Positions 24,934 to 62,672 of a stretch of DNA of 64,000 bases are shown piece by piece (position 1 is the first letter of the stretch; the number at the start of each line of letters is the position of its first letter). The notes beneath the pieces were generated by a model. That model was not told where the DNA came from. It saw nothing but the letters and a program-made list of their open reading frames with translations, and did no database searches. Source of the DNA: an uncultured Ruminococcus sp. (lineage in GTDB: Bacteria; Bacillota; Clostridia; Oscillospirales; Ruminococcaceae); assembly GCA_947178575.1 (NCBI GenBank), contig CAMWYX010000006.1:1-64000 (forward strand). Direction: 5' to 3'. Position numbers and translations under genes: made by a program.

Positions 24934-24962
24934 TTGACAAGTTTGTGAAAAACGTGTATAAT
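24934..24962 (+). promoter_or_regulatory. Promoter of the rny transcript
   Basis: Perfect TTGACA (24934-24939), 17 bases, perfect TATAAT (24957-24962). It predicts a leader of almost 600 nt before the rny start codon. Confidence 0.8.
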
Positions 24963-25281
24963 AAGTGTGTTGTATTTTGCATGAATATTGCTTTCAGGCG
25001 ATGCAGCTTTGTTTGTAGTCAGTTACGGAGAACAGATATAAATAGCTCCGTCAATGAGATATATTAACAAATAACGGACGTATCGTCCGGCATTTCAGGC
25101 GGATTCTGGAGTATAGTCCGCTTGTTTGTATATTACAACTTAATAATAAAGCGGCACATATCGCCTGTTACAATATAAGTTATACGATACAAACTTAAAT
25201 TGTCACAATTAAGGAAAGTGAGGTGAAAACCGTTATTGAGACTTGATAAAGTGAATTTTTTATGTTATACTATCCTTGGCG
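24963..25281 (+). other. 5' part of the long rny leader
   Basis: No open frame worth calling. Several hairpins are possible, for example GGACG..CGTCC near 25077-25093. Near its end, AAGGAAAGTGAGGTGAAAACC (25211-25231) looks like a ribosome site. It is about 320 bases from the rny start codon and separated from it by the conserved RNA element. Confidence 0.5.
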
Positions 25282-25542
25282 GTCTGGAACGGCGATATCA
25301 AGCAGAGTGCGATAACCAAGCACAATTTTATTTTGGTACAGCAGAAATGCTGAAGTCGCAGAAAAGACAAAAACACGTTATCTGCGATGTGTACCCGTAC
25401 GTTAGCGGGGAATTTACGCCTTTGGAGTGTCATACCAAACGTGAGTAGACTATGACTTGTCATATCCAAAACGGACACGTTGAACAAGGAATGAAACATA
25501 AAAGTTGATTTATAACTTTTTATAAGTTTTCAGTAACGGTAA
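25282..25542 (+). ncRNA. Conserved structured RNA element, copy A (before rny)
   Basis: Shares with 62041-62313 a core of about 150 bases (25388-25542) having only eight substitutions in its first 118 positions. A weaker upstream part shares CTGGAACGG-like and ACCAAGCA..TTTGG blocks. Helices visible in both copies: CCAA..TTGG (25316-25336), CCCGT-ACGTTA-GCGGG (copy B has CCCGA/TCGGG, a compensatory change), TATGA-CTTG-TCATA, and a long-range GTGTC/GACAC pairing. It ends nine bases before the rny ATG. The family is not recognised with certainty; a HEARO/omega-RNA-like mobile RNA is one possibility. Confidence 0.65.
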
Positions 25543-25550
25543 TGCATTGT

Positions 25551-27128
25551 ATGGACCCGATTATCGCTATTGTTCTGATTATTGCCGCTCTGGCAGCCGG
25601 TGCCGGTGTGAGCTGGTCTGTCGCTTACAAAAAAGGAGTGACTGCCGGAATCGACCAGCGGAAACGTGAAGCCGAAGCCGTTATCGGCTCTGCTGAACAG
25701 CAGGCTGAACGTATTGTCGCAGATGCCGAAAAAGATGCCGACAGTAAAAAGAAAAGTGCTCTGATAGAGGCAAAAGACGAGGTACATAAACTCCGCACAG
25801 AAGCGGATAAGGAAATCAAGGACCGCAGAGCAGAATTGTCACGTCAGGAAAGACGTATGCAGCAGAAAGAGGAAAATCTCGATAAGAAAACCGATAATCT
25901 CGAGAAAAAAGAAGAAGCACTCAGTCAGAAAATTAAAAACGCTGAGGAAAAACTGAAAGAAGCTGAACAGATTAAAAAGTCCGAGATGGACGTGCTTGAA
26001 AGAATATCCGAATTTACAAGAGAACAGGCAAAAGAATATATACTTTCAACACTTGAGGACGACCTCGTTCATGAAAAAGCCGTCAAAATAGCTTTGTATG
26101 AACAACAGCTCAAAGACGAATGCAACGAAAAAGCAAGAAGTCAGATTTCGCTCGCAATCGCAAAAGTCGCTGCCGACCAGGTATCAGAAGCGGCTGTTTC
26201 CGTTGTTCAGCTCCCAAACGACGAAATGAAAGGTCGTATTATAGGTCGTGAAGGACGTAATATCCGTACTCTCGAAACACTTACCGGTGTTGACCTTATA
26301 ATCGATGACACCCCCGAAGCTATCACTTTGTCATGCTTTGACCAGATTCGCCGTGAGGTCGCAAGAATTGCCCTCGAAAAACTTATCGCCGACGGACGTA
26401 TTCACCCGACACGTATCGAGGAAATGGTCGACAAGGCTCGCCGTGAAGTCGAATACCGCATAAAACAGGAGGGCGAACGTGCTGTAATCGAAACCAATGT
26501 ACACGGTCTTAACCACGAACTTATAAAACTTCTCGGCAGACTTAAATTCCGTACAAGCTATAGACAGAATGTTCTTGACCACTCAATTGAAGTCGCAAAA
26601 CTCTGCGGAGTTCTTGCATCTGAACTCGGAGTCGATGCAAACGTTGCAAGACGTGCCGGACTTCTTCACGATATAGGAAAGGCTCTTACTTCCGAAATAG
26701 AGGGTTCACACGTACAGATAGGCGTTGATGTCTGCAAAAAATATAACGAAAATCAGGTTGTTATTCATGCTGTTGAGGCTCATCACAACGACGTTGAACC
26801 GAAAACCGTTATCGCCTGTATCGTTCAGGCAGCTGATGCCATATCCGCTGCAAGACCCGCTGCACGAAGTGAAAATTACGAGAGCTATATTAAACGTCTC
26901 CAGAAACTTGAAGAGATATGCAAATCCTATAACGGCGTTGATAAATGCTTTGCAGTTCAGGCAGGACGTGAAGTCAGAATCATGGTTGTTCCGGAAATCA
27001 TCAACGATGAAAAAATGGTTCTCGTTGCAAGACAGATTGCACAGCAGATTGAGAACGAAATGGATTATCCCGGACAGATTAAAATTAATCTTATACGTGA
27101 AAGCAGAGTTTCGGATTACGCTAAATAA
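25551..27128 (+). CDS. rny: Ribonuclease Y
   Basis: Membrane-anchored endoribonuclease that starts mRNA decay in many Firmicutes. 525 residues: an N-terminal membrane helix (about 2-20), long coiled coil (about 30-175), KH domain ([12 protein letters not shown], about 225), HD domain (LLHDIGKA, about 365) and C-terminal region. I place the start at 25551 (MDPIIAIV), the family's usual N terminus. No Shine-Dalgarno sequence lies before it, unlike nearly all other genes here; the conserved RNA element occupies that space. Confidence 0.94.
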
Positions 27129-35807: not shown

Positions 35808-35831
35808 GCTAATCTCGGTCTGATGTCCTAT

Positions 35832-35928
35832 GAAGCGGGATGCAAAATGCGAACCGCAAGCAGGAGCTTTTCGTCCTGATGACAACTCCCCGTTCATCAG
35901 GCACTTCACGAACGCATTTTTACTCTTC
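35832..35928 (-). promoter_or_regulatory. Tetrahydrofolate (THF) riboswitch
   Basis: 97 nt in the folT leader. It aligns by eye with the THF class: outer helix GAAG/CTTC, then AGTA, helix AAAATGCG/CGCATTTT, helix CCTGATGA/TCATCAGG closing the loop ACGGGGAGTTG, and the 3' segment TTTTGCATCCCGCTTC matching the family's UUGCAUCC(G)CUCC. CGGG of the loop can pair with CCCG for the known pseudoknot. The gene context (folT-folC) agrees. Confidence 0.88.
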
Positions 35929-36017
35929 AATGAAATAGTCAGCTGAAACAGAAATTCCGCCCATGGTTTAAAATTCGGATAAATCCGATTCACACTGCCA
36001 CGATTATTATACATCAA

Positions 36018-61881: not shown

Positions 61882-62040
61882 TCGGCTGACGTTGTGTCGA
61901 AAAAATAACTGTATTTATTCTGAGGAATTATAACAGTTAAAGGAAAAGTATAAAAAGTTGTTATATAAAATCCTTTATAAAATAAAGGTCGGCGCTTCAA
62001 ATAGCAGTTCATAAGACGTCGCACTGTCTGTTTATAAAAA
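61882..62040 (+). other. 5' part of the expanded rpmI-rplT spacer
   Basis: rpmI and rplT, usually tens of bases apart, are 437 bases apart here. This part holds hairpins TAACTG/CAGTTA and CCTTTAT/ATAAAGG, and a ribosome-site-like AAAGGA near 61940, now about 375 bases from rplT. No gene. Confidence 0.55.
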
Positions 62041-62313
62041 CAGCTTGAACGGGGACTGCCGTCGTATAATGTGAATGCGAAAACCAAGCAGAAAAATTTT
62101 TTTGGCAATCAGTAAAGAAAGGAAATGTTACTGGCACGGTATTCAGCCACAGAATTGGTGTTTATCGTGTGTACCCGAACGTTATCGGGGAATTTACGCC
62201 TTCGGAGTGTCATGCCAAACATGAGTAGATTATGACTTGTCATATCAAAAATGGACACGTTGAACAAGGAATGAAACATAAAAGTTTATTTTATAAGTTT
62301 TCAGTAACGGTAA
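62041..62313 (+). ncRNA. Conserved structured RNA element, copy B (before rplT)
   Basis: Second copy of the element at 25282-25542; core 62168-62313. It shares TGTGTACCCG.ACGTTA, GGGGAATTTACGCC, GGAGTGTCAT, TATGACTTGTCATAT, GGACACGTTGAACAAGG and CAGTAACGGTAA. Its hairpin CCCGA-ACGTTA-TCGGG compensates CCCGT/GCGGG of copy A. The apical variable hairpin between 62106 and 62160 differs fully from copy A. It ends five bases before the rplT ATG. Confidence 0.65.
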
Positions 62314-62318
62314 ATGGT

Positions 62319-62672
62319 ATGGCACGTATTAAGGGTGCGATGATGACTCGCAAGAGAAGAAATAAAACATTAAAGCTTGCTAAGGGCTACTGGGGAGCAA
62401 AAAGCAAACATTTCAAGATGGCTAAACAGGCTGTAATGAAGTCTGGAAATTATGCTTACATCGGCAGAAAACAGAAGAAAAGAAATTTCAGACAGCTCTG
62501 GATTACAAGAATCTCTGCTGCTGCAAAAATTAACGGCATGAATTACTCCACTTTTATGAACGGCTGCAAAAAGGCAGGCATTAATCTTAACAGAAAAATG
62601 CTTTCCGAAATCGCTATAAACGATGCAGCAGGATTTACAGCTATTGCCGAAAAAGCAAAGGCTGCTCTTTAA
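62319..62672 (+). CDS. rplT: Ribosomal protein L20
   Basis: 117 residues starting [16 protein letters not shown], with [11 protein letters not shown] and RQLWITRI conserved. Binds 23S rRNA early in assembly and, in Firmicutes, represses its own operon. The ATG at 62319 matches the family start; an in-frame extension up to 62232 is only the RNA element read as protein. No Shine-Dalgarno site is within reach, unusual for a ribosomal protein gene. Confidence 0.95.

Follow-up and report, generated by a model that had tools for sequence, protein, structure and literature searches.

Tiny IS607-type elements without tnpB as candidate mobile split ribosome-binding sites before rny, rplT and other bacterial genes

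Structure within an mRNA can bring a distant Shine-Dalgarno (SD) sequence to its start codon: in genes 38 and 25 of phage T4, it shortens the SD-AUG distance from 22 to 5 nt and from 27 to 11 nt, respectively (PMC3014915). The RNA motif RAGATH-18, in turn, is the core of the guide RNA (reRNA) of IS607 TnpB nucleases, and 10,258 of 16,029 RAGATH-18 RNAs adjoin tnpB; PK2 of the reRNA is required for complex formation (section 10), and the TAM of the tested nucleases was AGGAG in 18 of 22 strains and GAGGG in 4 of 22 (PMC11061315).

The window in this work is the whole stretch of 64,000 nt analysed, from a contig of an uncultured Ruminococcus sp. A first-pass annotation of its sequence described a structured RNA block of about 260 bases before rny that recurs before rplT. 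Two homologous blocks are indeed found at 25282-25540 and 62041-62311, identical at 212 of 243 ungapped aligned positions, and a core of 118 nt contains the eight substitutions reported, including the change from T-G to A-T in the closing pair around an ACGTTA loop. The size was underestimated, since by comparison with other copies the elements exceed 260 nt: copy 1, before rny, extends 5' at least to the SD at 25211-25223, a motif common to other copies of its class (type 1), and copy 2, before rplT, starts near 61926. The annotation had left this distant ribosome site (25211-25227) outside the block. We also considered that it might be the old SD of rny, and rejected this because other type-1 copies carry the same SD inside the element. 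The right end of both copies is CAGTAACGG (last base 25539 and 62310). The features of the two loci are as follows, a slash marking the insertion point in empty sites.

24934-24962, + strand: promoter-like TTGACA-17-TATAAT upstream of the element, probably the native rny promoter (consensus scan, 12/12)
25211-25223, + strand: putative element-borne SD of copy 1, AAGGAAAGTGAGG (sequence; same motif in other type-1 copies)
25230-25239, + strand: 5' strand of the predicted closing helix P1 of copy 1, CCGTTATTGA (complementary to 25530-25539 and so paired in the MFE fold)
25243-25271, + strand: promoter-like TTGATA-17-TATACT within the element, type 1 only (scan; recurs in other type-1 copies)
25332-25338, + strand: 5' strand of the predicted second helix of copy 1, TTTGGTA (complementary to 25433-25439)
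25394-25409, + strand: hairpin with loop ACGTTA (sequence)
25419-25491, + strand: RAGATH-18 motif of copy 1 (RF03064, 73.5 bits)
25433-25439, + strand: 3' strand of the second helix of copy 1 in the RAGATH-18 bulge, TACCAAA (sequence complementarity)
25530-25539, + strand: right end and P1 3' strand of copy 1, TCAGTAACGG, the element ending at 25539 (empty sites in relatives, GGAGG/TAATGC)
25551-27128, + strand: rny, ribonuclease Y (TIGR03319, E 1e-209; a further in-frame ATG at 25542)
61920-61925, + strand: CTGAGG, likely a leftover of the native SD on the left side of copy 2 (AGG immediately precedes the left end, which other copies show too)
61926-61948, + strand: left end of copy 2, AATTAT-AACAGTTAAAGGAAAAG (AACAGTT left end shared with autonomous IS607 copies)
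61989-62064, + strand: extra 5' domain, conserved in full-length mobile copies (alignment A3 and consensus fold)
62101-62107, + strand: 5' strand of the second helix of copy 2, TTTGGCA (covariation)
62118-62123, + strand: putative element-borne SD of copy 2, AAAGGA (SD-like word here in 18 of 22 strands at RAGATH-18-only loci; unpaired in the MFE fold)
62127-62133, + strand: P1 5' strand of copy 2, GTTACTG (complement of 62302-62308; P1 recovered without guidance from alignment A3)
62199-62271, + strand: RAGATH-18 motif of copy 2 (RF03064, 73.7 bits)
62213-62219, + strand: 3' strand of the second helix of copy 2 in the RAGATH-18 bulge, TGCCAAA (covariation)
62302-62310, + strand: right end of copy 2, CAGTAACGG, with the P1 3' strand at 62302-62308 (empty sites GGAGG/TAAAAGACTATGG or near it, 28 relatives)
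62319-62672, + strand: rplT, ribosomal protein L20 (TIGR01032, E 2.5e-46)

Both copies exceed the Rfam cut-off for RAGATH-18 (44.9 bits), with 73.5 and 73.7 bits. Seven such motifs occur in this genome, one of them in an autonomous IS607 with a serine recombinase and TnpB, upstream of aroE (named by eye from its start), and no ORF of tnpB size lies between the upstream genes and either window copy. As in a reRNA, the right end is followed by flanking sequence in the position of the guide, and the TAM, here the SD, lies at the insertion point; as in an IS607 transposition unit, copy 2, the one whose left end was located, has there the sequence of the autonomous copies, and GG at both junctions. 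We are firm, on this sequence evidence, in regarding the window copies as non-autonomous IS607-type elements that consist essentially of the TnpB guide-RNA scaffold only; they would be transposed by IS607 TnpA in trans. The ACGTTA-loop hairpin, with the right end, is probably the equivalent of reRNA PK2. In type-1 elements, a near-consensus promoter lies between the SD/P1 strand and the guide RNA, so the guide RNA may be made separately and be usable by TnpB in trans.

The first-pass annotation had thus recognized the right kind of object, a mobile non-coding RNA without its protein gene, and suggested the wrong family. Rfam gave no match to HEARO, the omega-RNA of IscB elements, in the window at the gathering score or, for copy 1, at E values of up to 10; group I and II intron families were missing from the matches with E up to 10 or 0.1; and no L20 leader is matched before rplT at the gathering score. 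The extra 5' domain (GGTCGGCGCTTCAAATAGCAG...GACTGCCGTCG) is strongly conserved, with covarying stems, in full-length mobile copies from Ruminococcus, Synergistaceae and Selenomonas records; Rfam provided no convincing match for it. Elsewhere in the window, a THF riboswitch was found at 35831-35929 on the - strand (RF01831, 88.4 bits).

Relatives without the element reveal where it inserts. For rplT, matches were obtained in 57 of 60 genomes, and 30 loci were fetched and 29 parsed, one being the window copy; the other 28 genes, all in genus relatives, have GGAGG 9-10 nt before the ATG. For rny, 12 of 30 fetched loci were parsed, one again being the window copy, and the remaining 11 all have GGAGGTAATGCACTGT-ATG or a sequence near it. 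Neither gene has a local SD in the window, as the annotation had noticed, and the junctions there read CAGTAACGG/TAAATGGT-ATG and CAGTAACGG/TAATGCATTGT-ATG. Comparison of empty sites with junctions therefore indicates that the elements entered at GG/T inside the SDs of rny and rplT. At the left, 8 of the 13 candidate ends listed directly follow AGG, the GG there being a requirement of the listing. At the right, an ATG ORF begins within 25 nt of 41 of 51 distinct right ends (drawn from 53 RAGATH-18 hits), at 5-11 nt in 38 of these 41, compared with 15% of random positions (1573/10600). Since the TAM, with its GG core (AGGAG/GAGGG), is itself an SD motif, repeated placement between SD and start codon is explained, and by the same sequence comparison SD-targeting also accounts for the position of the autonomous copies. 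We hold identity and insertion logic, as read from sequence, to be firm.

In addition to the scaffold, ten small copies have in common a 5' part, absent from ordinary reRNAs, that runs from TTTGGCA or a variant through AAGAAAGGAAAA or a variant to GTTACTG. The last of these can pair with CAGTAAC in the right end, which defines helix P1, and the SD-like AAAGGA is situated between the TTTGGCA and GTTACTG strands. P1 emerged as the enclosing helix from an unguided consensus fold of 11 full-length copies, and the rplT leader of another species contains the compensatory pair GTTACCG:CGGTAAC. Because P1 is nearly invariant, its covariation is thin, with one compensatory pair in type 2 and a small number of other changes in type 1 and in lineage B. 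Loci fetched through RAGATH-18 only, regardless of SD or P1, provided 42 contexts with 22 strands complementary to the right end, and an SD-like word (AGGA, GAGG or GGAG) lies within 16 nt 5' of 18 of the 22, against a background of 8.5%. A second model, R2, consists of the core only and leaves out P1, the SD and the 5' strand of the second helix; it matched in 18 of 38 sister-genus genomes and in 7 of 7 genomes reached through pattern-scan loci. Sixty R2 loci were examined (30 of 86 plus 30 of 67 matches). P1 is present in 33 of them, and all 33 have the SD, although 25 had previously been selected for SD or belonged to the training set, so that the independent figure is 8 of 8 new elements; of the 25 remaining loci in which a right end is present, one has an SD-like word in the corresponding position.

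Other classes arrive at the same layout with other sequences. In type 1, which includes the rny copy, GAGGTGAAAA precedes CCGTTAYTGA, the strand that can pair with TCARTAACGG; in lineage B, AAAGGAGAAA precedes GCTATTC, GCTACTC or GCTGCTC, whose partner is GAGTAGC. The three small-element classes therefore have different SD words at the same place, and some type-1 and lineage-B copies show weak or broken pairing (e.g., L218, L037 and L041). Small elements of a second guide-RNA lineage, with the right end TTTTGAGTAGCAG (L066, L055, L070, L071, L104 and L240), carry AAAGGAGAAA or AAAGGAAAA upstream of a strand that can pair with their own right end, an arrangement that may be a convergent bridge.

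The second helix is formed by TTTGGCA and the bulge TGCCAAA inside RAGATH-18, and crosses P1. Covariation in a larger alignment, which the first-pass annotation had proposed as a check, is present here: in 15 elements (14 distinct), 94.8% of cells are paired versus at most 40.2% when the strands are slid, and the covariation score exceeds those of 500 of 500 shuffles. Note that the number of pairs changed on both sides (3) was reached in 72 of 500 shuffles. All 48 of the 48 type-2 elements have a second helix of at least 5 bp, in forms ranging from TTTGGCA:TGCCAAA through TCCGGCG:CGCCGGA and AGGGTA:TACCCT to TTTGCTG:CAGCAAA; shuffled bulges attain the real median in 4.8% of trials. Three other contexts in this larger set are type 1, where the 5' strand is placed elsewhere.

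We propose the following mechanism. As the target motif is the SD, an insertion would land between SD and start codon. The element would bring a replacement SD immediately 5' of a P1 strand that pairs with the right end just before the start codon; in type 2, the commonest class, a second helix from the segment 5' of the SD to the RAGATH-18 bulge would keep the SD in position. Within the mRNA, the two P1 strands would be separated by a compactly folded domain of 150-300 nt, bringing the SD within about 10-19 nt of the start codon (P1 not counted) and creating a split ribosome-binding site. Insertions might thereby be tolerable even before essential genes, and some copies would later have been fixed as leaders and lost their transposon-specific parts. 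To this reading, in which non-autonomous IS607 elements are mobile, repeatedly domesticated split ribosome-binding sites that reunite SD and AUG by folding, we assign a probability of roughly 0.7. The sequence comparisons demonstrate identity, insertion point, helices, SD, start-codon distance and retention across species, and a cis function of the element is well supported by them; that ribosomes use the bridged SD is what we infer.

The geometry was measured on 47 type-2-like elements, which had been selected for SD and P1. The start codon lies 3-15 nt past P1 in all 47 (43 ATG, 2 TTG and 2 ATT; 1-17 nt were searched), and 2-9 nt separate the end of the SD word from P1. The summed SD-to-start spacing, with the helix excluded, is 10-19 nt in 42 of 47, with a median of 15 nt; this plus a helix is long for an SD and counts against a split site. 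No SD follows P1 in 43 of 47. Two simpler arrangements were rejected: an N-terminal extension of the gene, because 42 of 47 elements contain an in-frame stop, and a leader peptide with translational coupling, because 27 of 47 have no start codon 2-15 nt past the SD.

Predicted folds are less uniform. The MFE fold contains P1 in 41 of the 47 elements and local pairing in 3, in folds that omitted the 5' strand of the second helix, an omission that favours P1. In the rny copy, P1 is present (z -3.85), and seven of the 13 bases of the SD segment are paired with the start region; in the rplT leader, GTTACTG is paired with an upstream CAGTAA, and the SD lies in that loop. The predicted folds of both window copies are thus ambiguous, without a simple open bridge, and it is the comparative evidence that points to a conserved SD and a helix bringing it near the AUG. 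Two further observations count against a split site: the promoter within copy 1 is downstream of its SD and P1 strand, so that its transcripts would have neither, and no bridge was found in the autonomous IS607 copies, yet the genes behind them persist.

The further copies and empty sites that the first-pass annotation proposed to look for exist. Besides the element-free SDs described above, a pattern scan of species genomes yielded 38 stretches, under record titles of Ruminococcus, Oscillospiraceae, Clostridia, Eubacteriaceae, Selenomonas/Selenomonadaceae and Synergistaceae/Synergistales/Fretibacterium, which we take to represent Clostridia, Negativicutes and Synergistota; many of the genomes are incomplete MAGs, in which misbinning is possible. 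Genes behind elements that were matched by NCBIfam are rny, rplT, glgB, rplS, efp, glgC, rplW (in two hosts), uppP, rplJ, ffh, rpsJ, rplD, rplK, rplO, infC (start ATT), rplE and lysC, of which glgB, ffh and uppP, scanned as 300-residue fragments, are below their own family cut-offs. In addition, tmk, carD and divIVA were named by eye, the divIVA-like protein having no NCBIfam match. At one locus (L179), the ATT start codon of infC is kept, 12 nt past the right-end helix of the element, and at another (L167, 436-562 and 743-937), a ribosomal protein L10 leader (RF00557) precedes the element, which is followed by rplJ. Further element fragments occur at ends of contigs C25, C46 and C56 of genome G000 (L057, L136 and L085), and element repeats appear to break the assembly.

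Some of these copies have been retained. An element precedes rplT in three genus members (the window, G026 and G054) and glgB at ten pattern loci, some of them near-duplicates (one was NCBIfam-tested, the others assigned by their shared N-terminus). In five genomes, which are 72-95% complete (G873, G874, G880, G882 and G883), the glgB copy is the sole R2 match. Before rplT, glgB, glgC and further genes, diverged copies no longer have certain guide-RNA features, namely the ACGTTA loop and the AAACATGAGTAG region, which belongs to the conserved k-turn, but still have the SD, P1 and the second helix; some diverged relatives score below the RAGATH-18 gathering score, at 32.5-42.8 bits. A Selenomonadaceae genome with 18 R2 matches in total (G902, L169) has one element each before rpsJ, rplD and rplW of a single operon, in which rplC, rplB and other genes have ordinary SDs.

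Part of this evidence can be read without a cis function. Plain non-autonomous IS607 elements would accumulate on SDs since TAM and SD coincide; weak translation would be tolerated, and the SD-like words and helices would be parts of the guide RNA. The target logic and the right-end distances do hold for autonomous copies as well, and RAGATH-18 is intact in mobile copies. However, elements of this kind should not lose the k-turn region and the ACGTTA loop and still keep SD, P1 and second helix, as the diverged copies do, nor does it suit them that different SD words occupy the same place in three classes, that rplT has kept a copy in three species and glgB in several, or that a glgB copy is the only R2 match in the five genomes mentioned; we give this explanation little probability. 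Excision of the element from the mRNA, in the manner of an intron or IStron, would rejoin the native SD to the start codon, and had been among the proposals of the first-pass annotation. IStrons of the IS607 type that have GG targets and end stems are known, including one in Selenomonas ruminantium (PMC4227781), and the conserved 5' domain of full-length copies is unexplained. Nevertheless, with no group I or II intron matched, and with a conserved SD inside the element, also in diverged copies that have no 5' domain, where splicing would remove it, we consider excision very improbable.

It is also conceivable that the elements are regulated leaders, in which GTTACTG toggles between the right-end helix and a local hairpin with the SD in its loop, translation being under the control of a protein or ligand. 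Of the 47 elements, 33 can form a local hairpin of at least 5 bp, which is the preferred state in the rplT leader; in the MFE fold of the rny copy, some SD bases are paired with the start region; and ribosomal proteins or translation factors are the products of many target genes. The hairpin is, however, absent in 14 of 47, including L052, the rplT copy with the compensated P1, and the target genes are diverse (glgB, glgC, lysC, ffh and a TelA-like gene), which makes regulation of this type unlikely as the general explanation. The local hairpin as the main structure was rejected because it is not conserved in all elements, and is retained as part of this alternative. The annotation's idea of a shared regulatory leader is supported in one part, the fixation of copies as leaders of genes such as rplT and glgB; these leaders are not known to have a ligand or protein partner.

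We therefore return to the split ribosome-binding site reunited by folding. In its most general form, the proposal describes a new class of mobile RNAs acting in cis: transposons would target SDs and repair the damage at translation by a new SD, which the guide-RNA fold places beside the start codon. The class would comprise at least three sequence forms, would occur in Clostridia, Negativicutes and Synergistota, and would have been domesticated as the working ribosome-binding site of essential ribosomal-protein and glycogen genes. From the sequence data, we judge this general form to have a somewhat better than even chance of being correct. If true, it would add the rebuilding of a broken ribosome site to the ways in which a mobile element can be harmless, beside self-splicing (IStrons and introns) and gene avoidance, and a CRISPR-like guide RNA would have been turned into a part of host genes. 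It would also link the TAM of a nuclease to the SD, offering a cause for repeated insertion before start codons, and may explain what some of the RAGATH-18 RNAs away from tnpB do.

The literature search, mostly outside subscription papers and bioRxiv, found no account of RAGATH-18 as a split ribosome-binding site, nor of TnpB elements and Shine-Dalgarno sites; in PMC11061315, 'ribosome' and 'start codon' occur 0 times. The elements described here share the core motif, hairpins, right end and target motif with the RAGATH-18 reRNAs of IS607 TnpB, an autonomous copy of which is in the same genome. Unlike ordinary reRNAs, they are small elements without tnpB that have an extra 5' part (SD, P1 strand and second helix), and their diverged copies are without the k-turn region and the ACGTTA loop, several falling under the Rfam cut-off. 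With the group B IStrons (IS607 type), they have in common IS607-type mobility, GG targets and an insertion made harmless at the RNA level (PMC4227781); IStrons self-splice by a group I intron, whereas none was found here and the rescue would take place at translation initiation. In the c-di-GMP riboswitch-group I intron of Clostridioides difficile, processing of the 5' UTR likewise decides whether ribosome-binding site and start codon meet (PMC3984707), by ligand-controlled splicing, unlike in the present elements. In the split sites of T4 genes 38 and 25, SD and AUG are joined by folding of the intervening RNA, as proposed here, but that structure is a short one in a phage mRNA, whereas the present one would be a mobile transposon guide-RNA scaffold of 150-300 nt before dozens of genes. 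As far as our searches show, split ribosome-binding sites and the rescue of insertions at the RNA level are known in parts, and their combination is new to the literature searched.
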